Source: Acidobacteriaceae bacterium
GTDB taxonomy: Bacteria > Acidobacteriota > Terriglobia > Terriglobales > Acidobacteriaceae
Length of the DNA stretch: 64,000 nucleotides
Direction: 5' to 3'
Assembly (NCBI GenBank): GCA_003134655.1
Contig: PLBY01000047.1
Coordinates: 5,620-69,619, forward strand
Position numbers and translations under genes: made by a program
Part shown: piece after piece, positions 24,398 through 52,374 of the stretch
How positions within the stretch are numbered: the stretch's first letter is position 1
Layout of the letters: each line of letters begins with the position of its first letter
Notes under the pieces: generated by a model
Told to the model about the DNA's origin: nothing
Databases searched by the model: none
What the model saw: only the letters and a program-made list of their open reading frames with translations

Positions 24398-24409
24398 GTA
24401 AACGTTTAC
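24398..24409. promoter_or_regulatory. Perfect LacI-type operator (MFS/GH31)
   Basis: GTAAACGTTTAC is a perfect 12-bp palindrome with the central CG typical of LacI/CcpA-family sites. It lies 48 bp before the TTG start of the MFS gene and 124 bp from the divergent GH31 start. A TATAAT box (24419-24424) follows nine bases downstream, so a bound repressor would cover the -35 region. It is the best copy of the motif in the window. Confidence 0.75.
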
Positions 24410-24418
24410 CACCGCGGT

Positions 24419-24424
24419 TATAAT
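24419..24424 (+). promoter_or_regulatory. -10 element of the MFS operon
   Basis: An exact TATAAT lies 33 bp before the TTG start at 24458. The region a -35 would occupy overlaps the LacI-type operator, and no good TTGACA is present. Confidence 0.5.
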
Positions 24425-24457
24425 GCACGCGTACCCTTGCGTGGCGGAGGAGATCAA

Positions 24458-25693
24458 TTGCGGTGGCGAATTGCCATCCTGATCAGTGCTGCGATCGCGA
24501 TCAGCTATCTCGACCGACAGACGTTGCCGGTCGCTGTGCAAGCGATCAGCAAAGACATTCCCCTGACGAATGGGCAGTTCTCTGCCCTTCAGTCCGCGTT
24601 CCTATTCTCCTATGCTCTGATGTACGCGGGCGGCGGCAAGCTAGTGGACCTTCTGGGAACTCATCGCGGTTTTACGGTAATTATGGTGTTCTGGTCGCTC
24701 GCCTGTGCGAGTCATGCTCTGGCCGAAGGCTTCGCAATGCTGCTCACCAGCCGATTTCTGCTCGGCGTGGGTGAAGGCGGTGGTTTTCCGGCCGCTACCC
24801 GCGCGGTGGCAGAATGGTTTCCCGCAGAAGAACGAGCAACTGCGATGGGCATCATCAATGCCGGGACGGCAGTTGGAGCGGTCGCCGCGCCTCCTCTCAT
24901 TGCTGCCGTTCTCGGTTACACCAACTGGCGCTGGATCTTCGTTATCACCGGCGGGCTGGGTATTTTCTGGGTTGCCTGGTGGCGGCTCTCATATGCTTCT
25001 ACCCGCTCTCTCATCTCGACCTTCACGGATCCGACTCCGGAATCTGCGGCCAGCCTGCCTTGGATTCATCTGTTTCGCATTCGCGAGACCTGGGGACTAG
25101 TGACCGCTAAGTTCCTGAGTGATGCAGCGTGGTTTTTCTACCTGTTCTGGCTTCCAAAATATCTCTACGATGCCCGCGGATTTGATGTTAAAGCGGTCGG
25201 TACCTTTGCTTGGATGCCTAGCGCGGCGGCAGGAGTGGGGTGTCTGCTGGGTGGCGCGTTTTCCAGTTACTTGTTACGTCGCAAGTTCTCGCTGGGCGTG
25301 GCGCGGAAGACGGCGCTTGGACTTAGCGCTGCTCTCATGCCTTTTGTCATTCTGATTCCCCATGTTCCCGTTTCCTCGGCAATCGCGCTGTTCTGCCTGG
25401 CGTATTTCGGTCAACAATCGTGGTCGACGCTGGTTATGGTTCTTCCCGCGGATCTGTTCCCTCAAAATATAGTCGGCTCAGTCGCCGGACTGGTTGGTTT
25501 CGGAGGAGCCATGGGGGGAATTGCCTTCGGCGAAGTAGTCGGGTACCTGCTGGACCATGGCTTCGGGTACAGCGTGGTTTTTCGCATCGCGGGAACGTTA
25601 CACATCGCCGCTTTCCTGATTATTCTGTTTGCCATTCCTGTTTTCTTGCCTTTGAAACTAGAGCCGCAGCTGAATTACCGAGGGATTCCATGA
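24458..25693 (+). CDS. MFS transporter, ACS family (ExuT/hexuronate-like)
   Basis: A 411-residue inner-membrane major facilitator with 12 predicted segments, resembling anion:cation symporters for hexuronates, galactonate and similar sugar acids. The first segment has AIAISYLDRQTLPVAVQAI, where D-R-x-x and the spacing match ExuT/GudP, and RFLLGVGEGGGFPAATRAVA and EWFPAEERATAMGI carry the family signature. The TTG at 24458 is preferred: GGAGGAG lies six bases before it, while the frame is open from 24437. It is the first gene of an operon with the enolase, AraD1-like and reductase genes. The next start overlaps its stop (ATGA). The likely cargo is an aldonate that the next enzyme dehydrates. 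Confidence 0.85.
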   Translation: MRWRIAILISAAIAISYLDRQTLPVAVQAISKDIPLTNGQFSALQSAFLFSYALMYAGGGKLVDLLGTHRGFTVIMVFWSLACASHALAEGFAMLLTSRFLLGVGEGGGFPAATRAVAEWFPAEERATAMGIINAGTAVGAVAAPPLIAAVLGYTNWRWIFVITGGLGIFWVAWWRLSYASTRSLISTFTDPTPESAASLPWIHLFRIRETWGLVTAKFLSDAAWFFYLFWLPKYLYDARGFDVKAVGTFAWMPSAAAGVGCLLGGAFSSYLLRRKFSLGVARKTALGLSAALMPFVILIPHVPVSSAIALFCLAYFGQQSWSTLVMVLPADLFPQNIVGSVAGLVGFGGAMGGIAFGEVVGYLLDHGFGYSVVFRIAGTLHIAAFLIILFAIPVFLPLKLEPQLNYRGIP

Positions 25694-26862
25694 AGATCAC
25701 GGAGATTCGTACTCGAGTCGTGCGCTGGCGCGGAAAAACCGTCCCGTTGCCTCCCCACTTCTGCACCAATCCGATGGATCTGTTGGAACTGCCCGAAGCC
25801 TCGATGCAGACTTTTACGTTTCATGGCTGGCTGATTGTCGAAGTATTCACCGACGACGGCAATGTCGGATTGGGCAATGCTGCTCTGGCGCCGCCAATTA
25901 CAAAACAGGTCATCGATCTCTATCTGAAACCCTTGTTGATTGGCCAAGACCCGTGGGACATCGAGCGGCTGTGGCAACACATGTACCGCAAGACATTGGC
26001 GTTCGGACGCAAGGGAATCGGCATGGTCGCCATCAGTGCCGTCGACATCGCTCTGTGGGATCTACTCGGCAAGTCTGCTAAACAGCCCGTCTATCGCCTA
26101 CTCGGCGGCCGGACGAAAGCGCGTATTCCCGTCTATGCCTCCCGCCTCTACAGCGTGGATCTCAGCGAGCTGGCAGCGGAAGCCAAGCGATACAAAGATG
26201 AGGGCTACCAGGCCATGAAGCTCCGCTTCGGATGGGGACCCGCTGACGGTTCCGCTGGCATGCAACGGAATCTTCAATTGGTTCGGACGGTCCGGGAGGC
26301 CGTCGGCGATGGTATTGATGTGATGGCGGACGCATACATGGGTTGGACTCTCGACTACGCCAAGAGAATGCTGCCGTTGCTCGAGCCTTTTCATCTCAGA
26401 TGGCTGGAAGAACCCGTAATTCCAGATGACATTCATGGTTACGCAGAGCTGAGGTCTTACGGGAAAATTCCCATCGCGGGCGGAGAACATGAATTCACCC
26501 TTTACGGATTCCGTGAGCTGCTGGAAGCGCATGCTCTCGATTACATCCAGTTCGACACCAATCGCGTGGGCGGCATCACGCAAGCCCGCAAAATCGCGGC
26601 CCTCGCAGAAGCCCATTCCGTCCCGGTGATTCCTCATGCCGGCCAGATGCACAATTACCACCTCGTCATGGCCAGTCTGAATTCTCCAATGGCGGAGTAT
26701 TTTCCGATGGTCGACATTGAAGTAGGGAATGAGTTGTTCTGGTACGTCTTCCAGGGCGAACCAAAGTCAAAGGAGGGCTACATCAATCTCGATGACAATA
26801 CTCCGGGTCTGGGGCTGACCATCAACGAATCCGCGCTCGAGCAGTTCGAGGTGATCGAATAA
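25690..26862 (+). CDS. Enolase-superfamily sugar acid dehydratase (rhamnonate dehydratase-like)
   Basis: A 390-residue mandelate racemase/muconate lactonizing enzyme family protein. The N-terminal capping domain is followed by the barrel. LALRKGIGMVAISAVDIALWD-type phrasing, YRLLGGRTKARI, MADAYMGWTLDYAKRML, RWLEEPVIPDDIHGYAELR, GGEHEFTLYGFRELLE, DYIQFDTNRVGGITQARKI and VIPHAGQMHNYH all track the L-rhamnonate dehydratase subgroup. Metal ligands are the Asp of MADAY, the first Glu of LEEP and the Glu of GGEHE. The catalytic His is in IPHAG. The product would be a 2-keto-3-deoxy sugar acid. The exact substrate (rhamnonate, fuconate or a pentonate) is open. ATG overlaps the MFS stop by four bases. 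Confidence 0.8.
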   Translation: MKITEIRTRVVRWRGKTVPLPPHFCTNPMDLLELPEASMQTFTFHGWLIVEVFTDDGNVGLGNAALAPPITKQVIDLYLKPLLIGQDPWDIERLWQHMYRKTLAFGRKGIGMVAISAVDIALWDLLGKSAKQPVYRLLGGRTKARIPVYASRLYSVDLSELAAEAKRYKDEGYQAMKLRFGWGPADGSAGMQRNLQLVRTVREAVGDGIDVMADAYMGWTLDYAKRMLPLLEPFHLRWLEEPVIPDDIHGYAELRSYGKIPIAGGEHEFTLYGFRELLEAHALDYIQFDTNRVGGITQARKIAALAEAHSVPVIPHAGQMHNYHLVMASLNSPMAEYFPMVDIEVGNELFWYVFQGEPKSKEGYINLDDNTPGLGLTINESALEQFEVIE

Positions 26863-26884
26863 TCCTTCATATTCCAGGGATCCT

Positions 26885-27886
26885 ATGACACGACTCATCC
26901 AAGTCAAGAAAGGAAATGTTCGCCGGGTGGCGCTGGTCGAGGAACCGAATGTCCGATTTCTGGACGGCTGCTCTTCGATCTGCGAGCTAGCGCATATCGC
27001 GATTGCGGCCGGCGCGAAACTCAGCGAGGTGGCTCGACAGAGAGCTAAACGCGAAACGCTCGATTACAACCCAATCTACGACGGCCGGTCTGAATGGCGG
27101 CTACTACCGGCCATTGATCATCCTGACGAGCAGTCGCGTTGCCTGATTTCCGGGACGGGATTAACTCATCTGGGCAGCGCACGCGGACGCCAGTCGATGC
27201 ACGCGAGAGCCACGGAGGATCTCACTGACAGTATGAAGATGTTCCGTTGGGGAGTCGAAGGCGGCCGCCCAGCCGCAGGAAGCATCGGGACCCCTCCAGA
27301 GTGGTTCCACAAGGGCACCGGCAATGCGTTGCGCGCGCATGGAGAACCGCTCGACATTCCGCCATATGCCGAAGACGGTGGCGAGGAGGCTGAGATAGCG
27401 GGCGTTTACCTCGTGGCTCCTGACGGCCAGCCCTGTCGCGTCGGCATGGCGATGGGCAACGAATTTTCCGATCATGCCTTCGAAAAGCGGAATTACCTGA
27501 ACCTTGCGGGTTCGAAACTTCGAACTTGTGCGCTTGGTCCAGAGTTGGTGGTTGATGCGGAATTCGAGTCCGTGCCCGTTGCGGCGACGATCGAGAGGAA
27601 TGGGGAGGTTCACTGGACCAAGACCTTCCGCACCGGGGAATCCGAGATGTGCCACAGCGTGCGCAACATTGAGTATCATCATTTCAAGTTTGAAGGTCAC
27701 CGCCGGCCAGGAGACGTCCACGTTCATTTCTTTGGAACCGACTGCCTCAGTTTTAGCGACCACATTCGCCTGCAAGATGGAGATGTCATGCAAGTTGCCG
27801 TTGAGGGTTACGGCCGCCCTTTGCGAAACCCTGTGCGTGTAGACAAATCGAAAGCAGTTCTTATTAGTGTCATTCCTTTGGGATGA
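26885..27886 (+). CDS. AraD1/GguC-like FAH-superfamily protein
   Basis: A 333-residue cytoplasmic protein resembling AraD1/GguC, members of the fumarylacetoacetase-like superfamily found in L-arabinose and sugar-acid operons. Visible phrases include LISGTGLTHLGSARGRQSMH, PEWFHKGTGNALRAHGEPLD, AGVYLVAPDGQPCRVGMAMG, NEFSDHAFEKRNYLNLAGSK and HVHFFGTDCLSFSD. The acidic metal site (E-E-A-E-I-A-G and E-F-S-D-H) is present. Such enzymes are proposed to dehydrate or cleave 2-keto-3-deoxy acids, which suits a place right after the enolase-type dehydratase. The gene starts 22 bp after that gene. Activity is inferred from family and context. Confidence 0.75.
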   Translation: MTRLIQVKKGNVRRVALVEEPNVRFLDGCSSICELAHIAIAAGAKLSEVARQRAKRETLDYNPIYDGRSEWRLLPAIDHPDEQSRCLISGTGLTHLGSARGRQSMHARATEDLTDSMKMFRWGVEGGRPAAGSIGTPPEWFHKGTGNALRAHGEPLDIPPYAEDGGEEAEIAGVYLVAPDGQPCRVGMAMGNEFSDHAFEKRNYLNLAGSKLRTCALGPELVVDAEFESVPVAATIERNGEVHWTKTFRTGESEMCHSVRNIEYHHFKFEGHRRPGDVHVHFFGTDCLSFSDHIRLQDGDVMQVAVEGYGRPLRNPVRVDKSKAVLISVIPLG

Positions 27887-28776
27887 GAAGAACTATGTCG
27901 AAACCAACCGTTGCAATTCTCGGACTCGGCATCATGGGCTCAGGTATGGCCAATCGTCTGCTCTCAGCAGACTTTCCGTTGGCGGTCTACAACCGTAATC
28001 GTGAAAAATGCGTTCCCGTCGCCAGTGCAGGAGCGTTCATCGCCGATTCGCCGCGTGAGGCGGCATCCCGCTCTCGGATCACTCTGAGTATGGTGGCGGA
28101 TGACGCAGCGTCCCGAGATGTCTGGCTGGGAGAAGAAGGAGCATTGAACGGAGCGCCCGCGGGTTCAGTCTTGATCGAGTCCAGCACGCTCAGTGGAGGC
28201 TGGATCCAGGAGCTTGCGGCCAAAGCCGTGGAGCGCGGTTGCCAATTCCTGGATGCGCCGGTTACTGGCACTAAGCCTCATGCCGCATCCGGCGAACTCG
28301 TTTTTCTTGTCGGAGGGTCAGCGGAAGCCCTCGATGCAGCGCGACCTGTGTTTTCGGTGCTCGGGCGGGATGTGGTGCACCTGGGGCCGGTCGGAAGCGG
28401 CTCTCTGATGAAGCTCGTCAATAACTTCGTCTGTGGAGTGCAGGCTGCGTCGTTTGCCGAAGCTGTGTCCATGGTCGATGCCGGAGGTCTTGACCGCGCC
28501 AAGGCCGTGTCCATCCTCACTGGTGGTGCTCCTGGAAGCGGAATCGTGAAGCGAGTCGCCGAACGAATCGCGGCCAATGATTTCACACCCAACTTTGCCC
28601 TACGCTGGATGGCCAAGGATCTGGCATACGCCCTGCGGGACGCCTCAATTAAAGGAATTTCTCTGCAAACTGCGGCCGCAGCGCTTGCCATGTTCGAGCA
28701 GGCGATTGCTGAAGGCCATGGCGACGAAGACTTTTCAGCCGTGTCCAAATCATCGAAAAGACTGCCGCACTTATGA
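27883..28776 (+). CDS. 3-hydroxyisobutyrate dehydrogenase-family reductase (GarR-like)
   Basis: A 297-residue beta-hydroxyacid dehydrogenase. The Rossmann motif AILGLGIMGSGMANRL is at the N-terminus, the substrate loop FLDAPVTGTKPHAASGELVF mid-protein, and the catalytic Lys is in GSLMKLVNNFVCGVQ. Relatives reduce tartronate or succinate semialdehyde or oxidise 3-hydroxyisobutyrate. The first ATG (27883) overlaps the previous stop as ATGA; an ATG at 27895, where family similarity begins, is an alternative. As last gene of the MFS operon it may handle the aldehyde released from the keto-deoxy sugar acid. Confidence 0.8.
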   Translation: MRRTMSKPTVAILGLGIMGSGMANRLLSADFPLAVYNRNREKCVPVASAGAFIADSPREAASRSRITLSMVADDAASRDVWLGEEGALNGAPAGSVLIESSTLSGGWIQELAAKAVERGCQFLDAPVTGTKPHAASGELVFLVGGSAEALDAARPVFSVLGRDVVHLGPVGSGSLMKLVNNFVCGVQAASFAEAVSMVDAGGLDRAKAVSILTGGAPGSGIVKRVAERIAANDFTPNFALRWMAKDLAYALRDASIKGISLQTAAAALAMFEQAIAEGHGDEDFSAVSKSSKRLPHL

Positions 28777-28879
28777 TTGCGAAGGAGCACCGAAGGCTCC
28801 GCCGCAACTTGTCTGGACCTAAAGATCGGACGCGGATTCGCAGCAACGATTTGCGGGGGCTGTTGTGCCTCAGAGTGTG

Positions 28880-28891
28880 GAAAACGTTTGC
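28880..28891. promoter_or_regulatory. LacI-type operator before lacI (autoregulation)
   Basis: GAAAACGTTTGC differs from the consensus palindrome at two positions and abuts TACAAT (28892-28897), a possible -10. It lies 85 bp before the LacI start at 28977, which suggests autoregulation. A second possible -10, TAAAAT, is at 28936-28941. Confidence 0.55.
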
Positions 28892-28976
28892 TACAATGCG
28901 CGGCGGAGTGCCTGAGTACCGCCCGTTCGCTATGGTAAAATGCTTTCGATAATACTGGCCTGTCCCTGAAAGCCCG

Positions 28977-30146: not shown

Positions 30147-30163
30147 AGGTTGCGTCGATTTGG

Positions 30164-30175
30164 GTAAACGATTAC
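30164..30175. promoter_or_regulatory. LacI-type operator of the arabinose operon
   Basis: GTAAACGATTAC has both outer halves of the palindrome, with one mismatch in the centre. It lies 41 bp before the AraD start codon and downstream of a candidate promoter. A TTG at 30160 would place coding sequence over this site, so the ATG at 30217 is the better gene start. Confidence 0.65.
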
Positions 30176-30216
30176 CGTACGAGAATCCGGGGCCCGGGGG
30201 CATAGGACAAAGGCCG

Positions 30217-30930
30217 ATGCTGCAGCGTTTGCGAGAACAGGTGCTGGAGGCGAATCTGGAACTAGTACGTCGTGGATTGGTCCTTTATACCTTTGGCAAC
30301 GTCAGCGGCATCTCGCGGGAACGGGGTCTGGTGGCGATCAAACCCAGCGGCGTACCTTACGAACGGATGAAGCCCGCCCACCTGGTGGTGGCTGACCTAG
30401 AGGGCAACGTTGTAGAGGGCGAACTCCGCCCTTCGTCCGATTTGCCCACGCACTTGGTTTTATACAACACCTTTCGCGAGATTGGCGGGGTCGCCCACAC
30501 TCATTCCGAATATGCGACGGCCTGGGCGCAGGCCCGAAAGCCCATACCCTGTTTTGGCACCACGCACGCAGATTATTTCCATAGTCCGGTTCCAGTGACT
30601 TCAGTTCTGTTGGACGAGGAAATCGCAGCCGATTACGAGAAAGAGACCGGAGATGCGATCGTAAAAGCTTTGCAGGGGATTAACTGTACGGCGAATCCCG
30701 GAGTGCTGGTGGCGAACCACGGCCCATTTACCTGGGGAGTTGATGCTAGCGCGGCAGCTCATCATGCCGTCATTCTTGAGTCGATGGCCAAAATGGCATA
30801 TCTCACGATAGGCATCCATCCAGGAGCGTCCTCGATCGGCACGGCACTGCACGATAAGCACTATCTGAGGAAGCACGGAAGCAGGGCGTATTATGGGCAG
30901 CCGAAGGACGCGCCCGCCCGACATTCATGA
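30217..30930 (+). CDS. araD: L-ribulose-5-phosphate 4-epimerase (class II aldolase family)
   Basis: A 237-residue cytoplasmic zinc enzyme joining L-ribulose-5-P to D-xylulose-5-P. Metal-binding His95 and His97 fall in GGVAHTHSEYATAW at the same positions as in E. coli AraD. A third His is in VANHGPFTWG at about 168, and the Asp of SSDLPTH lies near position 75. GNVSGISR and AIKPSGVPYE form the phosphate-binding region. The ATG at 30217 is chosen because the LacI-type operator lies just upstream and family similarity starts there. It heads a five-gene operon with the isomerase, kinase, mutarotase and GH39. Confidence 0.88.
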   Translation: MLQRLREQVLEANLELVRRGLVLYTFGNVSGISRERGLVAIKPSGVPYERMKPAHLVVADLEGNVVEGELRPSSDLPTHLVLYNTFREIGGVAHTHSEYATAWAQARKPIPCFGTTHADYFHSPVPVTSVLLDEEIAADYEKETGDAIVKALQGINCTANPGVLVANHGPFTWGVDASAAAHHAVILESMAKMAYLTIGIHPGASSIGTALHDKHYLRKHGSRAYYGQPKDAPARHS

Positions 30931-30958: not shown

Positions 30959-32389
30959 ATGGCCAAGAAAAAGATGACGATGGGCGTGATTGTGGGCAAC
31001 CGCGGATTTTTCCCCGATCATCTGGCCAAAAGTGGCCGCGAGGAGATGCTGCGCACACTGGAAGCGGACGGCATAGAGGTGGTGTCTCTCAAGCCAGACG
31101 AAAGCAAGCACGGTGCGGTCGAAACCCGGGAAGAATCTCGCCGCTGCGCCGACCTGTTCAAGCGCAATCGCGAGAGGATCGACGGCATCATCGTCACCCT
31201 GCCGAACTTTGGCGAGGAGCGCGCGATTGCCGACAGTTTGCGTCTGGCCGATCTTCGAGTACCGGTGCTCATTCAAGCTACGCCCGACGATCCCAAGCAA
31301 ATGACCATTGTCTCGCGCCGGGACAGCTTCTGCGGCAAAATGTCGGCCTGCAACAACCTTCGCCAGTATGGCATTCCTTATTCCGTCACAACATTGCACA
31401 CCGAAAGTCCCAACTCACCCGAGTTCGCCAAGGACCTGGAGTGGTTCTCTGGAGTTTGCCGGGTGGTGAAGGGGTTTCGAAACTTGCGTGTCGGCGCCAT
31501 TGGCGCTCGTCCGGCAGCATTCAACACGGTGCGTTACAGCGAGAAAATCCTGGAATCGCAGAGTATCTCTATCGAAACTCTGGACCTTTCCGAAGTTCTG
31601 GGCCGCATCGAGCGCATGAAAGACAATGACGACTATGCCCAGGCCAAACTCGCCGCCATCAAGAGATATGTGGATGCGGGCAGTGTGCCCGCGCCCGCCT
31701 TATTGAAGATGGCGAAGCTGGGCGCTGTTATCGACCAGTGGATGGCGGCGACCGAGGTTACCATCAGCGCGGTGCAGTGCTGGACCTCGATTGAGGAAAA
31801 CCTGGGCGTAGTTCCCTGCACCATTATGAGCATGATGAGCAACGAACTCCTGTCCAGCGCCTGCGAAGTGGACATTTGTGGTGTGCTGGGCATGCATGCC
31901 TTGCAGCTCGCCTCAGGCAGTCCTTCGGCGCTTCTCGATTGGAATAACAACTATGGATCGGACCCGAACAAAGCCGTCTGTTTCCACTGCTCGAACCTGC
32001 CGAAACATTTCTTCCGCTCAGTAAAGATGGACTTTCAGGAGATCATCGCCGGCACCGTGGGCAAAGAGAACACGTTCGGGACCTGCGTTGGGCTGATCAA
32101 ACCAGAGGAAATGAGTTTTGCCCGGTTCTCCACCGACGACACTTCGGGCAAGATGCGCGGGTATGTAGGCGAAGGACGATTCACTGATGACCCGCTGAAC
32201 ACCTTTGGCGGGGCAGGCGTGGTTGAGATACCGGAGCTTCAGAAACTCCTGCATTTCATTTGCGAAAGAGGTTTTGAGCACCATGTGGCCGCGAACCTCG
32301 CGACGGTCGCATCCGCCGTGTACGAAGCCAGCACTCGATATCTGGGGTGGGACATGTACTATCACGGTTGCAAGAACGGAGCCTGCTGA
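30959..32389 (+). CDS. FucI/AraA-superfamily sugar isomerase, likely the L-arabinose isomerase of this operon
   Basis: A 476-residue cytoplasmic protein of the L-fucose isomerase-like group (COG2407-type), not canonical AraA. Seen are the N-terminal MGVIVGNRGFFPDHLAKSGR, IDGIIVTLPNFGEERA, RRDSFCGKMSACNNLRQYGI, VGAIGARPAAFNTVRYSEKI, AVQCWTSIEENLGVVPCTIM, ACEVDICGVLGMHALQLASG, FHCSNLPKHFF and FVTHH-like CERGFEHHVA. Candidate metal ligands are the Glu of SIEEN, the Asp of EVDICG and the His of EHHVA. No araA homologue of the usual kind is in the window, and this gene sits exactly between AraD and AraB, so aldose-ketose isomerisation of L-arabinose is the best inference. GGAG precedes the ATG. 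Confidence 0.75.
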   Translation: MAKKKMTMGVIVGNRGFFPDHLAKSGREEMLRTLEADGIEVVSLKPDESKHGAVETREESRRCADLFKRNRERIDGIIVTLPNFGEERAIADSLRLADLRVPVLIQATPDDPKQMTIVSRRDSFCGKMSACNNLRQYGIPYSVTTLHTESPNSPEFAKDLEWFSGVCRVVKGFRNLRVGAIGARPAAFNTVRYSEKILESQSISIETLDLSEVLGRIERMKDNDDYAQAKLAAIKRYVDAGSVPAPALLKMAKLGAVIDQWMAATEVTISAVQCWTSIEENLGVVPCTIMSMMSNELLSSACEVDICGVLGMHALQLASGSPSALLDWNNNYGSDPNKAVCFHCSNLPKHFFRSVKMDFQEIIAGTVGKENTFGTCVGLIKPEEMSFARFSTDDTSGKMRGYVGEGRFTDDPLNTFGGAGVVEIPELQKLLHFICERGFEHHVAANLATVASAVYEASTRYLGWDMYYHGCKNGAC

Positions 32390-33963
32390 TGGCAATCGTG
32401 GCTGGAGTCGATTTCGGAACGCTGAGCGTTCGCGTTTCTCTGGTCGATAGCGAACGAGGCCTGCTCGAATCCGCGATCGCCGAGTACCCGCTGCACCGCA
32501 AGCGTGAAGATCCCGAATACGCCACTCAATCCCATGACGACCACATGCGGGCGCTTGCCTCCGCCACGCGCGCAGCCCTGAAGAAGGCGGGCGTTCCAGG
32601 CGATCAAGTGCAGGCCATCGCGCTCGATACCACGGGTTCGTCCGTGATACCGGTTGGCAAAGATCTTCAACCACTCGGCGAGTATTACTTGTGGTGCGAT
32701 CACCGCGCCAAGAGCGAGGCTGCCGAGATCACTGAAGTGGCTCACCATGAAGGCCTGGAGGCCATCCAATGGTGCGGCGGAGTCTATTCGTCCGAGTGGG
32801 GGTTTTCCAAACTTCTTCACTGGCTTCGACACAATCCCGAGAAGCGATCGGACTTCGTCTCCGCCTTTGAGCATTGCGACATGGTCGTGGCTACGCTGTG
32901 CGGCATCACTCAGCCGAAGCGTGTAAGGCGCAGTATCTGCGCCATGGGACACAAGTGGTTATGGAACGCACAACTGGGCGGACTTCCGCCGGAAAACTTT
33001 CTGGTAAAAATAGACCCTTTGTTGAAGGGAGTTCGCGACCAGCTGGATGGCGAGTATGCCACTTCCGATCGAATCGCCGGCACACTCTCGTCGCATTGGG
33101 CGGAAAAGCTGGGGCTCAAAGCGGGTATTCCAATTCCGGTTGGCGCCTTCGACGCGCATTGGGATGCGATCGGCGCAGGATGCCGAACCGATGACATGGT
33201 GAACGTCATCGGCACCTCGACTTGCATCATTGGAATCACTCCATCGGTGAACTTAGTGCCAGGAGTTTGCGGCGTTGTGCAAGGCAGTGTGCATCCCCTG
33301 CGCACCGGAATCGAAGCCGGACTCTCTGCGGTGGGAGACATCTTCAGTGCGATCGCTTCTCGTGCAGGCACTGACGTAAAGACACTGAGCACTGGACTGG
33401 AAAACTACCGTGCCGGCCAGACTGGATTGCTGCGCATGACCTGGGATAACGGTGACCGCACTGTGCTGGTTAACCCCAACCTGCGCGGCGTCACGCTGGG
33501 ATGGAATCTGCAGAGCACGGCGCAGGACGAACTGTTCGCCGCTATCGAAGGAACTGCGTTTCATACCCGAGTGATCCTGGATCGCATGGCTGAGCATGGA
33601 GTAGACATCAAACGCGTGATCAACGCCGGAGGCATTCCCCAGAAGAATGAGATCCTGAACCAGGTCTATGCCAATGTTCTGGGGCGCCCAGTATTGGTTC
33701 CATGCAAGAGCGTAGTTAGCCTCGGATCTGCGATCTTTGCATTTCTGGCTGCCGGCACTTTCAAGACGATCGAGGAAGCACAGGATAAGATCTGCCCTTC
33801 GCACCGCACCTTCCTTCCGGATGATTCGACGCAACGCACTTACGACAATCTGTACTCCATGTACAGCAAGTTGTATTTCGCCTTGGGACAACGTAGCGAC
33901 AGGATGGGAGACATCCTGCCAACATTAATCGAGATCGCAGAGTCTGCAGTGGGGAAAGTCTAA
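32389..33963 (+). CDS. araB: Ribulokinase (FGGY family)
   Basis: A 524-residue sugar kinase phosphorylating L-ribulose. The N-terminal ATPase motif is GVDFGTLSVRVSLVD. IALDTTGSSVIPV and YYLWCDHRAKSEA are typical of AraB, as are GAFDAHWDAIGAGC, VIGTSTCIIG and the second ATPase lobe VINAGGIPQKNEILNQVYAN. Length is a little under E. coli AraB (566). The start ATG shares a base with the isomerase stop (TGATG), so the two are translationally coupled. Together with the epimerase and isomerase it makes a complete route from L-arabinose to D-xylulose-5-P. Confidence 0.9.
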   Translation: MAIVAGVDFGTLSVRVSLVDSERGLLESAIAEYPLHRKREDPEYATQSHDDHMRALASATRAALKKAGVPGDQVQAIALDTTGSSVIPVGKDLQPLGEYYLWCDHRAKSEAAEITEVAHHEGLEAIQWCGGVYSSEWGFSKLLHWLRHNPEKRSDFVSAFEHCDMVVATLCGITQPKRVRRSICAMGHKWLWNAQLGGLPPENFLVKIDPLLKGVRDQLDGEYATSDRIAGTLSSHWAEKLGLKAGIPIPVGAFDAHWDAIGAGCRTDDMVNVIGTSTCIIGITPSVNLVPGVCGVVQGSVHPLRTGIEAGLSAVGDIFSAIASRAGTDVKTLSTGLENYRAGQTGLLRMTWDNGDRTVLVNPNLRGVTLGWNLQSTAQDELFAAIEGTAFHTRVILDRMAEHGVDIKRVINAGGIPQKNEILNQVYANVLGRPVLVPCKSVVSLGSAIFAFLAAGTFKTIEEAQDKICPSHRTFLPDDSTQRTYDNLYSMYSKLYFALGQRSDRMGDILPTLIEIAESAVGKV

Positions 33964-33990
33964 CGGTCGAGGCGCATGCGAGGAGCAACG

Positions 33991-35121: not shown

Positions 35122-35154
35122 TGGATGCCAGCATACTGTGTTGCGGAAGGCTCG

Positions 35155-38999: not shown

Positions 39000-39016
39000 A
39001 TCTCTTCACCCGGTTT

Positions 39017-44138: not shown

Positions 44139-44168
44139 TGTATTCCCCCCACGACGCGGTGAGTCTGA

Positions 44169-44180
44169 GTAAACGCTTTC
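44169..44180. promoter_or_regulatory. LacI-type operator before TonB receptor 1
   Basis: GTAAACGCTTTC (read on plus) has a perfect left half and two mismatches on the right. It lies 31 bp before the receptor start and 17 bp after its -10 element, inside the early transcribed region. The aldo/keto reductase at 44306 is transcribed away from it. Confidence 0.6.
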
Positions 44181-44197
44181 TCAGCTAATGGAGAGAG

Positions 44198-44227
44198 CTT
44201 ATAGCCTTGTCCACGAGCCGCTGTCAA
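44198..44227 (-). promoter_or_regulatory. Sigma70-type promoter of TonB receptor 1
   Basis: On the minus strand TTGACA (44227-44222), an 18-bp spacer and TATAAG (44203-44198). The -35 is a perfect consensus and the -10 matches in five of six positions. Confidence 0.75.
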
Positions 44228-44305
44228 GAAGTTTTTGTTCACTTGAGCAAGCGATTTCACAGTTGGTGTATTCTTCCTACTCTGTATCGTGAGGTGGAAT
44301 CCGCA

Positions 44306-45286
44306 ATGGAGACCCGACAACTTGGAAACAGCGACCTGCACGTCACCCCTATCGGAATTGGCGCCTGGGCCATTGGTGGCGGTGGCTGGAACGGGAGCAT
44401 GGGGCCGCAAAATGAGAGCGACTCCATCCCGGCCATTCACGCCGCTTTAGACTACGGCCTCAACTGGATTGATACGGCCGCACTCTATGGCCTCGGCCAT
44501 TCGGAAGAAGTAGTGGCGCGAGCACTGAGAGGCCGCACGCGGCCGTATGTCTTCACCAAGTGTGAACGCGTGTGGGACGTTAAGGGAACAATTGGCGGGT
44601 GTCTCAAGGCTCAGTCGATCCGGCGTGAATGCGAAGACAGCCTGCGCCGCCTGCAGACCGATATCATCGACCTCTATCAGATCCATTGGCCCGAGCCCGA
44701 TGAGGACATCGAGGAAGGTTGGAGTGAGTTGGCTCGACTCCAACAAGAAGGTAAAGTCCGCTATATCGGGGTTTCGAACTTCAGCGTCTCCCAGATGGAG
44801 CGGGCACGAGCCATAGCTCCCATCACGTCGCTGCAACCGCCATATTCGATTGTCACTCGCAAGATCGAGAAAGAGATCCTGCCCTACACTTCACAGAAAG
44901 GAATCGGAGTCATTGTTTATTCTCCAATGTCCGCCGGCCTGCTGACTGGAGCCATGACACGCGAGCGAGTCACCTGCTTTGCCGCAGAGGACTGGCGCAG
45001 AAATCTCCCTAACTTTCAGGAACCGCTGTTGTCTCGGAATCTGAGAGTGGTAGAGCGCCTTCGCGATATTGGGAACCGCCACAAGCGCACGCCGGGTGAA
45101 GTGTCCATTGCCTGGACGCTGAACAACCCCGCAGTGACAGGCGCGATTGTCGGGTTCCGGAGTGCGAAACAGGTTTCTGGAATCATCGGAGCGGCGGAGT
45201 TCCGGTTACTGCCGAGTGAGATGTCGGAAATCGAGAACGAACTGAAACAAGAGGCTTCCCCCACGGTGACCCAGAAAAGCCGTTGA
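44306..45286 (+). CDS. Aldo/keto reductase
   Basis: A 326-residue NADPH-dependent TIM-barrel oxidoreductase. The start METRQLGNSDLHVTPIGIGA gives the family N-terminus. The catalytic Asp-Tyr pair is in NWIDTAALYGLGHSEEVV, the Lys is in YVFTKCERVW, and the active-site His is in DLYQIHWPEPDEDIEEGW. RYIGVSNFSVSQMERA and the C-terminal FRSAKQVSGIIGAAEF bind cofactor. The ATG at 44306 follows GAGGTGG; the longer frame from 44207 would cover the receptor promoter. It may reduce or oxidise pentose-derived aldehydes. It is divergent from TonB receptor 1 and lies 78 bp before the GH127-like gene. Confidence 0.85.
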   Translation: METRQLGNSDLHVTPIGIGAWAIGGGGWNGSMGPQNESDSIPAIHAALDYGLNWIDTAALYGLGHSEEVVARALRGRTRPYVFTKCERVWDVKGTIGGCLKAQSIRRECEDSLRRLQTDIIDLYQIHWPEPDEDIEEGWSELARLQQEGKVRYIGVSNFSVSQMERARAIAPITSLQPPYSIVTRKIEKEILPYTSQKGIGVIVYSPMSAGLLTGAMTRERVTCFAAEDWRRNLPNFQEPLLSRNLRVVERLRDIGNRHKRTPGEVSIAWTLNNPAVTGAIVGFRSAKQVSGIIGAAEFRLLPSEMSEIENELKQEASPTVTQKSR

Positions 45287-45317
45287 CAAACCTCCAGAGC
45301 AGGGCGAAGCTGACTTA

Positions 45318-45329
45318 GTAAACGTTTGC
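45318..45329. promoter_or_regulatory. LacI-type operator before the GH127-like gene
   Basis: GTAAACGTTTGC has a single mismatch to the consensus palindrome and directly abuts TATTAT (45330-45335), a likely -10. It lies 35 bp before the start codon at 45365. Confidence 0.65.
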
Positions 45330-45364
45330 TATTATCATTGCTTCGCGCCCAGGAGACCCCCCGC

Positions 45365-47227
45365 ATGCATGCCCGCGTCAGCCGCAGAATCTTTCTCAAA
45401 GCCGCCACAGTTACCACCGCAGCTACATACGCGACGAGCGTGCTTCCTGCCTGGGCCGCTGCGGACAAAGGGGCCGCTGCAGTTCACACTCCGCTCACGA
45501 CGTTTGCCTATTCGGACGTGGAACTGCTCGAGGGCCCCATGAAACGGCAGTTCGAAGAGAACCATGCCCGCTTCCTGAACCTCGACGATGACAGGATGCT
45601 CAAGGTCTACCGACAGGTTGCCGGCTTGCCCGCGCCAGGGGAAGACATGGGAGGCTGGTACGACCTCAACGGCTTCAGCCTGGAGCAAAATGACTTTCAT
45701 GGCTTCATTGCGGGCCATAGCTTTGGACAATATCTTTCTGGACTTGCACGGGCGTACGCGGTCACGGGATCAGAACCTACCCGGGCGAAAATCAATCGCC
45801 TGGTGAAAGGCTACAGCGAAACGCTCGATCCCAAAGCCAAGTTCTTTATTGGTTATCGGCTAACGGCCTACACCTACGACAAGCTCTCCTGCGGGCTGAT
45901 TGATGCGCACGAGTACGCCCGCGATCCGATGGCAATGGATGTTCATGAGAAGCTGACCCATGCGATCGGCGCCTATCTGCCCGAAAAGGCCCTTTCACGG
46001 CAAGAACAACGCTCCCGGCCGCACAAAGACACATCGTTTACCTGGGACGAGACGTACACTTTGCCCGAAAATCTTTTTCTTGCATATCAACGCAGCGGCA
46101 ACACCTTTTACCGCGACATGGCGAAGAAATATCTTGAAGATGACACCTACTTCAATCCTCTTTCCGAAGGTAACAACGTCCTGCCCTTCGAACACGCATA
46201 CAGCCACGTGAATGCCTTCAGCTCCGCGATGCAGGCCTATATCACACTGGGAAGCGAAAAGCATCTGCGGGCTGCCAAGAACGGGTTCGAGATGCTGCAG
46301 GCGACTCAAAGCTTCGCGACGGGCGGCTGGGGACCAAATGAATCATTTGGCGAACCGGGAACAGGTCAACTGGGCGACAGTCTCGCGCTCACTCACGCCA
46401 GCTTTGAGACACCATGCGGGGCGTATGGCCATTTCAAGATCACGCGCTATTTGCTGCGTGTCACCAAGGATTCGCGATACGGCGATAGCATGGAACGCGT
46501 ACTGTACAACACAATCCTCGGAGCTTGGCCGATTCAGGCGGACGGCACTTCGTTCTACTATTCGGACTATGCCGCAACCGGCAAGAAAGTCTGGTATGGG
46601 CAAAAATGGCCATGCTGTTCCGGAACCTTCCCCCAACTCGCGGCCGATTACCACATCAGCGCGTATCTGCGCTCCCCCGATGGTGTGTACGTAAATCTCT
46701 TCACTCCTTCCAAGGTGCGATGGAGTGATGCTGGCGGACGATACGGACTGAAGCAGGAAACCAAGTATCCGTTCGATAACAAGATCCAGATCCAAGTGTC
46801 AGCTTCCCAGCCCAAGGACTTTACGCTCTATGTCCGCATTCCCGGCTGGGCTGCGCCGGATCCGATCCTTTCCATCAATGGCAACCGGGTTTCCGATCCA
46901 GTGCAGCCAGGCACCTTTGCCGCCCTCCGGCGCAACTGGAAAGACGGCGATCGCGTCGAACTCGAACTCCCCATGCCAGTTCGGCTGGAAACCGTGGATG
47001 AAAATCATCCGAAGTTTGTGGCGTTGGTCCAAGGCCCGCTGGTGTTATTCGCTATAGCCAAATCGCAGCCGAGCTTCGATCGCAACGCATTGCTGCAAGC
47101 TAAGCCCACAAACAATGTCACCGGAGATTGGCTCGCAACTGCAGCCGACGGAAGCAGCGTGACAATGCGTCCGTTTATGAACATCGACAAGGATAGTTAC
47201 AGTACGTACGTATTGCTGAAGGCCTGA
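45365..47227 (+). CDS. GH127-related beta-L-arabinofuranosidase-like enzyme
   Basis: A 620-residue exported protein. A Tat signal (SRRIFLKAATVTTAATYATS) starts at the ATG at 45365. The alpha/alpha barrel has DVELLEGPMKRQFEENHARF, GFIAGHSFGQYLSGLARAYA and ERVLYNTILGAWPIQADG. The Cys pair of the GH127 zinc site is in WPCCSGTFPQL. The Glu/Cys element reads SFETPCGAYGHFK, so Glu and Cys are three residues apart rather than two as in the GH127 gene at 36927. This may mark a different subfamily or altered activity. A C-terminal beta domain has FTLYVRIPGWA. It is probably controlled by the LacI-type site at 45318. The linkage it cleaves cannot be fixed. Confidence 0.78.
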   Translation: MHARVSRRIFLKAATVTTAATYATSVLPAWAAADKGAAAVHTPLTTFAYSDVELLEGPMKRQFEENHARFLNLDDDRMLKVYRQVAGLPAPGEDMGGWYDLNGFSLEQNDFHGFIAGHSFGQYLSGLARAYAVTGSEPTRAKINRLVKGYSETLDPKAKFFIGYRLTAYTYDKLSCGLIDAHEYARDPMAMDVHEKLTHAIGAYLPEKALSRQEQRSRPHKDTSFTWDETYTLPENLFLAYQRSGNTFYRDMAKKYLEDDTYFNPLSEGNNVLPFEHAYSHVNAFSSAMQAYITLGSEKHLRAAKNGFEMLQATQSFATGGWGPNESFGEPGTGQLGDSLALTHASFETPCGAYGHFKITRYLLRVTKDSRYGDSMERVLYNTILGAWPIQADGTSFYYSDYAATGKKVWYGQKWPCCSGTFPQLAADYHISAYLRSPDGVYVNLFTPSKVRWSDAGGRYGLKQETKYPFDNKIQIQVSASQPKDFTLYVRIPGWAAPDPILSINGNRVSDPVQPGTFAALRRNWKDGDRVELELPMPVRLETVDENHPKFVALVQGPLVLFAIAKSQPSFDRNALLQAKPTNNVTGDWLATAADGSSVTMRPFMNIDKDSYSTYVLLKA

Positions 47228-48874: not shown

Positions 48875-48893
48875 GAGGTCGTCTCCCGATGCA

Positions 48894-51800
48894 TCAGAAC
48901 GAAATCTTTCCTCCCAATTGCCAGAACCTCGGCTCGTGCGATGCCGTGGCTTGGCCGAAATTTCCGTCTGGGAAATTCACATCGACTCCGTTGGTGCCGT
49001 TCCATGCATAGTTTGCCCGGTTGAACAGATTAAAGATTTCAAACCGGAATTGAAAATTGACTCTTTCTGTAATGGAAGTGTCCTTGTAGAAGTTGATGTT
49101 CGTCTCGATAAAGTTTGGCCCGCGGAACAGCATAGCCTTCTCGTTTCCGTTTTGACCAAAAGTAGGAACCGCGAAGTCGCTCTTGGGAATTGCCCCTGTC
49201 AGCCAGGTGCCATTCGAGGTTAACTGATGGTAACTAGCCACGTCTGGATAGGAGGCGGCAGTTTCCCCATCGGCATTGTAGTTTCCGCTGCCGGCCTGGT
49301 AAGCGACGGCTGGATCGGATGCCGAGCATCCGGTGACGTTGCTGAGGGCCCCTGATTGGCACACCGCCAGAAAGCCATTGGTATTGTTCGCGGTTATTGG
49401 ATAACCAGACTGCACGATGCTCGTTCCGCTGATTCCCCAGCCGCCGGTCAGATAGCCTACAGCCCCTCTTCCACCATTCAATCCTTTCACCGAATAGTTG
49501 AAGCTGAAGGAGAAGCGGTTGGGCGCGTCAAAGATGGATGGACCGTAGTACGGCTGAGGATTCAGCCCCGCAGAATTGGGATAGTAGAGAGCGTCGTCTT
49601 TGGAACGGGAACGGGTGTAAGAAACATCCATGTACCCACGCGAGAAGTGCCCTCTTACATCAAAGATCAGAGCTTCGTAGTTACCATAGCGGTCGTTGTC
49701 GGCATATGTAATTGCTCCGAAGCTCTTATTGAGACGGGTCGGGCTAGGAACGACCGGCGTCGCACTGGTGTTCATCTGGTTGATCAGATCGCCCGGGAAG
49801 GTGTTGATATCGACTCCGTAGGAAACATTCCCGATCGAGTTTCCGTTTCCGACGATGTTGTAGGAGTGAGATCCGTTATAGCCAACACTGGCTGAAAAGT
49901 TGTTTCCCAGCTTCCGCTCTAAAGTGAGGGACCATATGTCCGACTTCGGCGACTTCAAGAGCGGGTTGATTCCGCCGATCGCGAAGCTGGCACCGACTAC
50001 CCCACCCTGCGCGTTAAGGCCACCTCCCTGTTGCGGCGTTGGGCCTGTTCCTGGCCCGAAAGTCGGAAACGTGAATCCGAAAGGAGGCTTGCTGCCGGTC
50101 CCAAGCACAAAGATTGGAGCCTGAGCGGAAACCGTCCCACCCGCAACAAAGGTCGGCGCCACCTCTCCTGGCGGACTACCTCGGAATTCTTCCTGCACAT
50201 TCGCCTGGGTCAGCCAGTTGTTATATACGCCGAAACCACCTCGTACTACCCATTCGCCATTCCCCGTAGGATCCCATGCGACACCGATGCGAGGGCTAAA
50301 CAGGTTGTTGACCGAGTGCAGAAGGGCGTTGTGAGTAGCCTTGGCATAGCCATTCGTCACTTGCTCTTGCTCTGTGGTACCGGTACCGAGGTAAAAGTTT
50401 CCAAACACGGTCGACGGGCTTTTCGACCACGGGTTACCGCTATCGTCGTAGCGCAGGCCTAAGGTAAGGGTCAGGTTCTTCCTGGCCTTCCAAGTGTCCT
50501 CCACGAAAAGTCCGAAGGTTCTGGAAGCAGCGTCCCAACTCCACAACTGTTGCGTACCGGTTGCAGGGTTGTAATAAATTCCGTTTTCGTTTGTGGGAGC
50601 ATCCTGGGCCAGCGTCAGCAGATTGCTGAATGAGAATTTCGGTTGCGACCACGGTCCCTGGAAGGGCTCAACATCATCTCCATACCAGCCTTCGTACCCG
50701 AATTTCAGGGTGTGGGCTCCTTTCACATGCGTGAGAACGTCGCGCCAATGGTAGTTGTGCTGGATGAAATCTCCCTGTGCGAAACCCACGCCGAACGCTT
50801 GCCCGGAATCCACGTTGATCCCGTTTACCGATATCGACGGAACGGAGTAATCTTTCGCCCCACTGCCCAACACGCCCTCGACCCTGCTCAGGCCGGCGGT
50901 AAAGTCATTCAGCGTGTTCGGCGAAAAGGTGTGTGTCCAACTGGCCTGCCCGGCCACTTGCCACGTGTTATTCAACGCGGAAAATTGTGGCATGGGCGAC
51001 GGAGCACCGGTCAGAAGAAGAGTGCGGAAGATGCTGGCATAGATTCTGTCATTCTTGAAGCCCTTGTCCAGACGGGCAAAATACTGCGTGCCATTCCGTA
51101 TCGATGTGGCGCCAAATGAACCAGTGTCGATCATGGGCGTTGTGCAAGGAATGTTCTCCACGACTGCCGTTCCGCAAACTGAACTGCCAAGCACATCCGA
51201 TGCGGTTTGCGAGACAGCCACTCCTGCCACTCCGACGGGCTGATAATTGGTGAGAACTCCAGTTCCGACCGTTCCCGGATTATTCGCTTGGGCGAAGCTG
51301 ATAAACTCCGGCGCCGCGAAGGTCACCGATCCCCCCGCGCTCGACGATGAACGCAGCGGCTCCACCGAGAAAAAGAAGAAGAAATTATGGTGCGGAATCA
51401 CCGGACCGCCGATGGCGAAATCCATATTGTTGGAATGGAAGGGCTTGTAGGGTCCTTCCGCCGAACTTACAAAGTGCTGATTCGCAAACATGCCCTGGTA
51501 GTTAAACCAGTCTGCCGCTGAGCCGTGGAATCGGTCAGTTCCAGATTTGGTGGTAAACATAGTTTGCAGTCCGGCGGCGCGGCTGTACTCGCTCGAGAAT
51601 GTGTTGACCTGCACACTCGTTTCCCGGATCGCTTCAGGCTGAGGGGTTAAATTCAAGACGCCCTGGCGAATACCGCTGGTCACGTCCAGCCCGTCCACCA
51701 CGTATTGGTTATTATTCTGGCCCTGGCCGTTGGCGCTGGCGTCAACCTGCTCTTCCGTAGAGTAGTTGTCCACGCCCGATGCGGGGCTTCCAGACGTGCT

Positions 51801-52307
51801 TGTGCCCAAGCCGGAGACACCCGGCGCCATTGTCACCAGCGTGACGAGGTTGCGGCCAATGATCGGCAGCTGCGCCACTGCTCCACTCTCGATGGTCAGC
51901 TGAGTGCGGCTATCCGCAGTGTCCACCATCGGAGCCTCTGTGCTAACCACCACCGACTCGCTGACTGAACCGACCCTGAGAGCTATCGGCACGTTCAGAT
52001 TCTGTTCCGTGAGCAGAGTGACGTCGGCCTCCGATTTCGCGAAGCCAGCAGCTTGGACGGTAATTTTGTACCGACCCGGGGCCAGACTGACGAAACGATA
52101 ATTGCCCGCATCGTCGCTCGTCGCAACCGCGGTAGCTCCGGTCGCAGTGTTGACGATTTGGACGCTAGCCTTGGCAACTCCCGCTCCGCTCTGATCTTTG
52201 ACTTCTCCCTGGATGCTGGCTGTGAATTGTGCAAAGGCCGCACCCGTGATGATCACGATGATGGAGAACAACCAGATCGAATAGCGAGACATCATGCTTC
52301 GTGGCAT
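48894..52307 (-). CDS. TonB-dependent receptor (Oar-like) 2
   Basis: A 1,137-residue outer-membrane receptor. The ATG at 52307 is preferred because GGAGGG lies six bases before it and the signal peptide (SIWLFSIIVIITGAAFAQ) follows; an earlier in-frame start at 52337 has no such support. The carboxypeptidase-like beta domain has ASIQGEVKDQSGAGVAKASV. The plug has QYVVDGLDVTSGIRQGVLNL and TTKSGTDRFHGSAADWF. The barrel ends FWQLGGKISF with terminal Phe. It shares architecture, but only moderate sequence, with receptor 1. A TTGACA promoter and LacI-type operator lie upstream, so it probably imports related arabinose-containing oligosaccharides. Confidence 0.88.
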   Translation of the reverse strand: MPRSMMSRYSIWLFSIIVIITGAAFAQFTASIQGEVKDQSGAGVAKASVQIVNTATGATAVATSDDAGNYRFVSLAPGRYKITVQAAGFAKSEADVTLLTEQNLNVPIALRVGSVSESVVVSTEAPMVDTADSRTQLTIESGAVAQLPIIGRNLVTLVTMAPGVSGLGTSTSGSPASGVDNYSTEEQVDASANGQGQNNNQYVVDGLDVTSGIRQGVLNLTPQPEAIRETSVQVNTFSSEYSRAAGLQTMFTTKSGTDRFHGSAADWFNYQGMFANQHFVSSAEGPYKPFHSNNMDFAIGGPVIPHHNFFFFFSVEPLRSSSSAGGSVTFAAPEFISFAQANNPGTVGTGVLTNYQPVGVAGVAVSQTASDVLGSSVCGTAVVENIPCTTPMIDTGSFGATSIRNGTQYFARLDKGFKNDRIYASIFRTLLLTGAPSPMPQFSALNNTWQVAGQASWTHTFSPNTLNDFTAGLSRVEGVLGSGAKDYSVPSISVNGINVDSGQAFGVGFAQGDFIQHNYHWRDVLTHVKGAHTLKFGYEGWYGDDVEPFQGPWSQPKFSFSNLLTLAQDAPTNENGIYYNPATGTQQLWSWDAASRTFGLFVEDTWKARKNLTLTLGLRYDDSGNPWSKSPSTVFGNFYLGTGTTEQEQVTNGYAKATHNALLHSVNNLFSPRIGVAWDPTGNGEWVVRGGFGVYNNWLTQANVQEEFRGSPPGEVAPTFVAGGTVSAQAPIFVLGTGSKPPFGFTFPTFGPGTGPTPQQGGGLNAQGGVVGASFAIGGINPLLKSPKSDIWSLTLERKLGNNFSASVGYNGSHSYNIVGNGNSIGNVSYGVDINTFPGDLINQMNTSATPVVPSPTRLNKSFGAITYADNDRYGNYEALIFDVRGHFSRGYMDVSYTRSRSKDDALYYPNSAGLNPQPYYGPSIFDAPNRFSFSFNYSVKGLNGGRGAVGYLTGGWGISGTSIVQSGYPITANNTNGFLAVCQSGALSNVTGCSASDPAVAYQAGSGNYNADGETAASYPDVASYHQLTSNGTWLTGAIPKSDFAVPTFGQNGNEKAMLFRGPNFIETNINFYKDTSITERVNFQFRFEIFNLFNRANYAWNGTNGVDVNFPDGNFGQATASHEPRFWQLGGKISF

Positions 52308-52362
52308 GGATTCCCTCCACAAGTCTTTCTTGCGCAAGTCGAAGGTTTTTAGGGTGACCCGA

Positions 52363-52374
52363 GAAAACGTTTAC
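52363..52374. promoter_or_regulatory. LacI-type operator before TonB receptor 2
   Basis: GAAAACGTTTAC (plus) differs from the perfect palindrome at one base. It lies 56 bp before the start codon and 14 bp past the -10 element, inside the early transcript. Confidence 0.65.

Follow-up and report, generated by a model that had tools for sequence, protein, structure and literature searches.

Genes and predicted operators of a probable arabinose locus

We analyzed a stretch of 64,000 nucleotides, referred to here as the window (C68:5620-69619), from the draft genome of a soil Acidobacteriaceae bacterium (8.05 Mb, 164 contigs, 99.5% complete, 5.2% contaminated). It lies on the 96-kb contig C68 and brings together TonB-dependent receptors, an inner-membrane transporter, degradative enzymes and a LacI-family regulator, P0001, the make-up of a locus for carbohydrate utilization containing TonB-dependent outer membrane transporters (CUT). 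Together, the genes read as a set that takes up polymers of the plant sugar L-arabinose, cleaves them and catabolizes the sugar. This report concerns the palindromic operator GTAAACGTTTAC, which recurs in front of these genes, and the regulator that may bind it.

A sequence-only reading of the window had listed a palindrome at 24398 and five copies with one or two mismatches, each in front of a gene and outside convincing coding sequence. We reproduced these positions exactly, and all six sites lie ahead of genes. With up to two mismatches, the motif occurs seven times in the window, compared to a mean of 0.97 and a maximum of 5 in 100 dinucleotide shuffles. The match at 24398 is perfect; one mismatch is found at 30164, 45318 and 52363, and two at 28880, 44169 and 50391. 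The last of these (50391..50402), absent from the earlier list, is located inside the coding sequence of TonB-dependent receptor 2 and scores 7.9 bits with the site matrix, compared to 19.2-23.8 bits for the other six. We rejected it as an operator and take it as a chance match.

The first operator (AGTAAACGTTTACC, 24397..24410) is shared by two divergent genes, for a GH31 glycosidase (22051..24273, minus strand) and an MFS transporter (24437..25693, plus strand). The top subfamily match of the transporter is an aldonate transporter, with a score under the cut-off of that profile. It is the first gene of an operon that continues with genes for an MR/MLE dehydratase, a GguC/AraD1-family protein and a HIBADH-type dehydrogenase (25720..28776, plus strand); here and elsewhere, operon members were assumed to follow their first gene. 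The second operator (GGAAAACGTTTGCT, 28879..28892) is upstream of the lacI gene that encodes P0001 (28977..30050, plus strand) and overlaps a TACAAT -10-like box.

The third operator (GGTAAACGATTACC, 30163..30176) precedes the araD operon on the plus strand. Its first gene encodes L-ribulose-5-phosphate 4-epimerase (30217..30930; NCBIfam NF006047, 340 bits, cut-off 257). It is followed by an isomerase of the L-fucose isomerase C-domain family (30959..32389; PF02952), an FGGY ribulokinase (32389..33963; NCBIfam NF003154, 555 bits, cut-off 428), an aldose 1-epimerase (33976..35121; PF01263) and, as the final gene, a GH39-like glycosidase (35125..36912; PF01229). The isomerase had no match in the PDB at E 0.01; its position between araD and ribulokinase suggests that it is probably an L-arabinose isomerase.

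The remaining operators serve receptors and hydrolases. One (AGTAAACGCTTTCT, 44168..44181) lies between the genes for TonB-dependent receptor 1 (TBDR1; 40860..44138, minus strand; PF25183, PF13620) and an aldo/keto reductase (AKR; 44207..45286, plus strand; PF00248). Downstream of TBDR1 are genes for a GH127 protein (GH127a) and a GH51-type arabinofuranosidase (36927..40663, minus strand; PF07944, PF06964). The next (AGTAAACGTTTGCT, 45317..45330) is upstream of a second GH127-family gene (GH127b; 45326..47227, plus strand), and the last (AGAAAACGTTTACT, 52362..52375) is upstream of the gene for receptor 2 (TBDR2; 48894..52337, minus strand). The sites at 30164 and 45318 touch open frames extended to TTG codons; the likely ATG starts are downstream, at about 30217 and 45365.

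All six sites have a purine (R) at the 5' flank and a pyrimidine (Y) at the 3' flank, and the conserved unit is therefore the 14-bp sequence RGTAAACGTTTACY. Positions G2, A4, A5, C7 and G8 and their partners are invariant among the six sites, each of which is an even palindrome with a central CG. In a wider pool of 166 sites, which includes stretches picked for having sites, 132 have an annotated gene within 350 bp. At least 131 of these 132 have the central CG, which the search matrix itself favours.

Other, weaker sites were also noted. Second sites at 44246 (78 bp from the operator at 44168; 14.1 bits) and 30108 (55 bp from the operator at 30163; 12.4 bits) are perhaps auxiliary operators. 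A candidate site (GGAAATCGTTTGCT, 55961..55974; 17.3 bits) is found about 70 bp before a TPR gene (54280-55887), in an overlapping open frame; the orthologue of this gene in a congener (G123) has a best upstream score of 7.8. The sequence-only reading had also proposed a weak site at 19743, possibly controlling an aldonate dehydratase. With three mismatches and a score of 9.5 bits, this site (19743..19754) is not accepted as an operator in this genome. The best scores before the orthologous gene were 10.8 in G123, 14.5 in G082 and 19.2 bits in G059, and good sites precede the gene in relatives G059, L173 and L175.

Predicted operators beyond the window

Genome-wide counts were made with the 14-mer RGTAAACGTTTACY and with the reversed motif as a control. 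With up to two mismatches there was no overall excess (36 places, compared to 46 for the control). Close matches were unevenly spread. Every place that matches perfectly or with a single mismatch, five in total, is on contig C68, one of them just beyond the window. The earlier reading had proposed that a motif equally common throughout the genome would speak against control by it, and this distribution argues in its favour.

Eight of the 36 places are on C68, two of them past the window end, at window coordinates 65843 and 80455. The former (GGCAAACGTTTACT) is before a third GH127 gene (GH127c) on the minus strand. This gene crosses the window end and probably leads an operon with DUF5695 and a second GH51-type gene (57955..63413, minus strand). 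The latter is before the gene for a third TonB-dependent receptor (TBDR3) and a divergent FG-GAP/ASPIC gene. All eight sites have R and Y flanks, and C68 likely carries eight operators across 56 kb. The predicted regulon is larger than the window and adds the third GH127 gene and the third receptor.

On other contigs there are 28 places. With C163:154305 left out, 20 of 27 fall within open frames of 100 codons or more; two of the 20 are at extended starts. The place at C9:18672 (AGCAAACGCTTACT, 19.5 bits) has R-Y flanks, lies where a GH51-like gene begins, and may be a regulon member in trans.

Conservation of the operators in relatives

The motif was defined in the window itself. Counts in the window and in its home genome are therefore partly circular, and relatives provide the independent test, of which congener G123 is the cleanest case. 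In the 5.9-Mb genome of congener G123, all nine close matches fall within C54:116754-175642, the 59 kb of a syntenic locus whose orthologous proteins are 63-90 percent identical. They precede MFS/GH31, the isomerase operon, GH127b, TBDR2, TBDR3, another receptor and GH51a, and a two-mismatch site is found between GH127a and AKR. Orthologues of araD, lacI and TBDR1 were not found in this C54 stretch. The lacI orthologue is on contig C33 (C33:50628-51668), with a weaker site (16.3 bits) of its own. At G123:C54:140816, where there is no lacI gene, the operator that precedes lacI in the window persists in identical form. The GH31/MFS operator is in the equivalent place in G123 (133578) and L170 (4692), and a site is ahead of an MFS fragment in G082 (50990). 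The 14-mer before GH127b is identical in G123 (151724), G059 (C55:7638) and L169 (11145).

Some match to P0001 was found in 128 of 150 genomes of the family. We scanned 20 stretches picked solely for a close lacI orthologue and found 48, 40 and 35 sites at thresholds of 15, 17 and 19 bits. In the same stretches, 714 column-permuted palindromic matrices that kept the CG centre gave means of 4.7, 2.2 and 1.1 and maxima of 41, 29 and 23. None of the 714 reached the true count; those that came closest had near-equivalent column orders.

Sites were also counted gene by gene in these 20 stretches together with G010 and G032, both fetched after their sites had been seen. Several genes in such counts have only one to three orthologues. 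Sites of at least 15 bits preceded araD in 8 of 9 cases, LacI in 14 of 22, MFS in 2 of 2 and GH51a in 3 of 4. They preceded the FGGY kinase in 2 of 9 cases and HIBADH in none of 2, as expected for operon-internal genes. TBDR2 orthologues are preceded by sites in G123 and in stretches of G059, G084, G009 and G092; the count by gene for these four is biased towards sites because the stretches were picked for them.

A second set was found by LacI alone among named genomes. After exclusion of 6 repeats and 21 distant relatives (at most 34 percent identity), 28 loci were kept. All 28 hold a site, which is within 400 bp before lacI in 23, and araD is preceded by a site in 10 of 11 cases. Operator identity was 0.92, compared to 0.46 for the flanks, and was higher in 23 of 23 pairs, for rows picked for having a site.

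Conservation extends to Telmatospirillum (Alphaproteobacteria), with lacI orthologues 64-66 percent identical to that of the window (L197, L198, L200). Sites with at most one mismatch are upstream of the isomerase gene and of lacI, and in L200 a site separates lacI from a divergent ABC sugar importer. In a midpoint-rooted LacI tree (45 of 47 rows, with a long-branch warning), the three Telmatospirillum rows form one fully supported group, which sits among acidobacterial branches whose order is unsettled. The pattern points to a possible horizontal transfer of lacI together with its operators.

The lack of an overall genomic excess is what would be expected if the repeats were a chance or general genomic motif with no regulatory role. 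This explanation is scarcely credible given the clustering of the sites, their position before genes, their conservation across genera and in an alphaproteobacterium, the G123 locus and the result with permuted matrices. The recurrence of sites before lacI, araD, GH51 and receptor genes in relatives also bears out the earlier expectation of conservation before orthologous genes.

The regulator and a second site class

P0001 has the domain make-up of the LacI family, with an N-terminal helix-turn-helix (HTH; PF00356, 52.1 bits, cut-off 27) and a C-terminal periplasmic-binding-protein-like sensor domain (PF13377, 110.7 bits, cut-off 26.5). Its recognition helix reads STATVSR, a sequence that the genome's eight further LacI-type proteins lack. 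All 50 parsed orthologue loci (of 64) read S(T/I)ATVSR, where the parsing pattern itself demands TVS. Sites track the presence of the orthologue: 23 genomes with a lacI orthologue contain 102 sites with at most one mismatch (53 control matches), and 23 genomes without a close orthologue contain 11 (31 control matches). Three of the latter (G006, G007, G018) have weak LacI matches; G006, a congener, has no sites and no control matches. The site before its gene, this co-occurrence and a helix unlike the other eight make P0001 the best candidate for the regulator of the R-Y sites.

The genome encodes nine LacI-type HTH proteins, and the sites could belong to another of them or be shared by several. 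One such gene (C145:64425-65522) is itself preceded by a site of type CGTAAACGTTTACG, as are its orthologues in G028 and G056. However, this class is flanked by C and G instead of the R and Y found in eight of eight C68 sites, and the R-Y sites precede the P0001 gene and follow the presence of its orthologue. Control by another LacI-family protein, or by several, is therefore very improbable, and P0001 remains our preferred regulator.

With at most one mismatch, CGTAAACGTTTACG occurs at six places (two perfect, four with one mismatch), compared to two for the control. Besides the site before the LacI gene, these are C145:92972, C9:19950, C55:153075, C76:121252 and C121:103007. On C145, a second araD-symporter-isomerase-kinase operon is preceded in this way, and on C9 an esterase gene that belongs to a GH51/GH127/GH3 cluster. 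The others precede genes that are GH3-like, GAPDH-like and TonB-receptor-like, as judged by eye from their N-termini. The C145 and C9 sites, considered as members of the P0001 regulon, were reassigned to this sister LacI. Among its five best loci, three have the site (own, G028, G056), L231 has none and L230 was unparsed; the other 15 loci gave nothing usable.

The sites point to a sister regulon that is distinguished by its flanking base pair, C...G as opposed to R...Y. The bare 12-mer of the sequence-only reading finds the window sites. It is too loose for genome-wide use (14 places with at most one mismatch, compared to 9 for the control) because the sister LacI probably uses CGTAAACGTTTACG, which has the same 12-bp core, and the two site classes would be merged. 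They lend themselves to testing whether a difference in a single flanking base pair keeps two LacI regulons apart.

Predicted promoter geometry and proposed mechanism

Of the 132 sites with an annotated gene, 69 have a promoter-like pair with a score of 8 or more out of 12, compared to a shuffled mean of 31. The -10 box begins between 25 and 8 bp ahead of the operator in 38 of the 69; shuffled flanks gave a mean of 8.4 and a maximum of 13 in 50 rounds. This layout prevails for araD (11 of 13), the isomerase (5 of 5), TBDR3 (3 of 3) and TBDR2 (2 of 2). In 30 of the 69, the start of the -10 box is past the first operator base, as for MFS (4 of 4), lacI (11 of 14) and GH51a (4 of 9). The predicted promoters of TBDR1, TBDR2 and TBDR3 share the order TTGACA-N16-18-TATA-type box-13 to 16 bp-operator, a pattern chosen after inspection of the sites. 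It reads TTGACA-N18-TATAAG-16-operator (44168) towards TBDR1 and TTGACA-N18-TATACA-13-operator (52362) towards TBDR2.

Both layouts, with the -10 box before the operator or, at MFS, after it, would suit repression. Activation or dual control by P0001 has a precedent in the bifidobacterial LacI-family regulator AraQ, for which a dual role was proposed, with activation where the site is upstream of the -35 box (PMC5928203). The promoters with a -10 box after the first operator base, including all those of MFS, could be read in this way. Against this stand the 38 promoters in which the box closely precedes the operator, including most of those of araD and all of those of the isomerase. An activating or dual role for P0001 is very improbable, and repression is the preferred reading.

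Taken together, the sites, their clustering and conservation, the link to lacI and the predicted promoter geometry make it highly likely that P0001 represses an arabinose regulon through RGTAAACGTTTACY. The presence of operators before uptake, cutting and catabolic genes and of the same sites in relatives indicates that these genes very probably switch on together. The earlier proposal that the LacI protein at 28977 controls all the genes named there as one regulon is thus largely supported, except for the aldonate dehydratase.

In the proposed mechanism, P0001 would act as a dimeric LacI-type repressor. Without inducer, it would occupy RGTAAACGTTTACY at its own promoter and at those of the arabinose regulon, comprising three TonB-dependent receptors, GH31, GH51, GH127 and GH39 glycosidases, the MFS-aldonate operon and the araD-isomerase-ribulokinase operon. 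At the araD, isomerase and receptor genes, the operator would mostly be close behind the predicted -10 box; at MFS, the predicted box follows the operator, which would hence overlap the promoter core. Binding of a monosaccharide to the sensor domain would release the repressor and turn on uptake, cleavage and catabolism together. Judging from the target genes, L-arabinose or a compound derived early from it would be the most probable inducer.

Several observations weigh against repression of the whole set by P0001. In G123, the lacI orthologue is on a different contig than the operators, which would imply control in trans there. In the 20 stretches with G010 and G032, sites of at least 15 bits precede GH127b in none of 3 cases, TBDR1 in 2 of 6 and TBDR2 in 1 of 3, the receptors in this comparison being distant homologues, and 8 of 22 LacI orthologues have no such site within about 300 bp. 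In the second set, 5 of 28 lacI genes have no site within 400 bp. The -10 box precedes the operator in only 3 of 14 scored lacI promoters, and a TTGACA-type promoter was not found at the GH127b, araD, lacI, GH127c or MFS operators. Operators of LacI-family proteins are often alike, so that paralogues might cross-bind. Finally, binding, repression and the inducer are all deduced from DNA sequence.

Genes beside the locus

A block that may concern hydroxyproline adjoins the third receptor outside the window (window coordinates 65908-76343; L026 2528-12963). It contains genes for a 4-hydroxyproline epimerase, a DHDPS-like protein, an aldehyde dehydrogenase, a GntR regulator, an alpha-galactosidase and an S9 peptidase. 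The epimerase scored 440.1, just under the NCBIfam cut-off of 442. Synteny with G123 covers the epimerase, GntR, alpha-galactosidase, peptidase and receptor genes. Among the 23 genomes with a lacI orthologue, the epimerase is present in 15 and the S9 peptidase in 8, in 4 of them on the contig of the epimerase. Among the sites listed, the epimerase shares a contig with operator sites in at least three genomes (own, G123, G092). A matrix scan from 65908 to 80387 found no place above 7.5 bits, so that the hydroxyproline genes lack an operator to themselves. The analysis did not identify a D-hydroxyproline oxidase, though no dedicated search was made.

It is conceivable, if rather doubtful, that the locus uses plant hydroxyproline-rich glycoproteins such as extensin, with the LacI regulon acting on arabinofuranose caps and the outside block, with the third receptor, on the protein backbone and galactose, and that a sister LacI regulon with the same 12-bp core is separated by a single flanking base pair.

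An 845-residue protein without a Pfam or NCBIfam match (L026:8244-10781) has counterparts in G123 (71 percent identity) and L176 (72 percent). In addition, TPR and FG-GAP/ASPIC-UnbV genes repeatedly adjoin TonB-dependent receptor genes, here (window 47261-48760 and 52517-57874; L026 17102-18937) and in relatives. Their products are perhaps surface partners of the receptors.

Comparison with known systems

Acidobacteriota are abundant in soil. This analysis proposes a regulon in an acidobacterium that can be put to the test, complete with operators, predicted promoters and a candidate regulator; the same operator is visible in many relatives and in one alphaproteobacterium. Narrow literature searches naming Acidobacteria together with regulation or uptake terms returned no description of this regulon.

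The closest solved structure to P0001 is a ribose repressor (RbsR; 9ny7), similar over residues 3-322 (184 bits), but the target genes differ. P0001 also scored below the RbsR equivalog cut-offs (NF007743, 209.6 compared to 531; NF047341, 208.6 compared to 382).

The site set obeys the general rules described for LacI-family regulons in RegPrecise, where operators are even palindromes with a central CG, in most cases between 140 and 30 bp upstream of the start codon, and where over three quarters of local regulators are autoregulated (PMC4052901). The main text of that study contains no words starting with arabin or acidobacter.

AraQ, which regulates araBDA in bifidobacteria, resembles P0001 in having predicted sites before arabinose catabolism genes and its own gene; it also has sites before some arabinofuranosidase genes (PMC5928203). 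AraQ sites after or over the -10 and -35 boxes were read as repression (PMC5928203), and we apply the same reading here. AraQ differs in belonging to another phylum and in reaching central glycolysis. TonB-dependent receptors were not seen among its targets in the sections of that paper considered here, and the comparison with P0001 made here is by regulatory role. BauR1 and BauR2 similarly provide LacI-family control of genes for beta-arabino-oligosaccharides in bifidobacteria (PMC5928203). They are described for that pathway, and the same sections did not join receptors, hydrolases and araD genes into one set. The beta-arabino-oligosaccharide cluster of B. longum uses an ABC importer (PMC7263609).

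In its architecture, the locus resembles the sux CUT locus of Xanthomonas campestris, where a LacI/GalR-family repressor, SuxR, controls a TonB-dependent receptor, an MFS transporter and a degradative enzyme together, with induction by the sugar (PMC1790865). That locus serves sucrose and has four genes (PMC1790865), whereas the one described here counts three receptors and several hydrolases, with eight sites spread across 56 kb. LacI-family arabinose regulators in bifidobacteria and LacI-type control of a sugar locus with a TonB-dependent receptor were thus already known; what the predicted regulon would add is a well-supported acidobacterial case.

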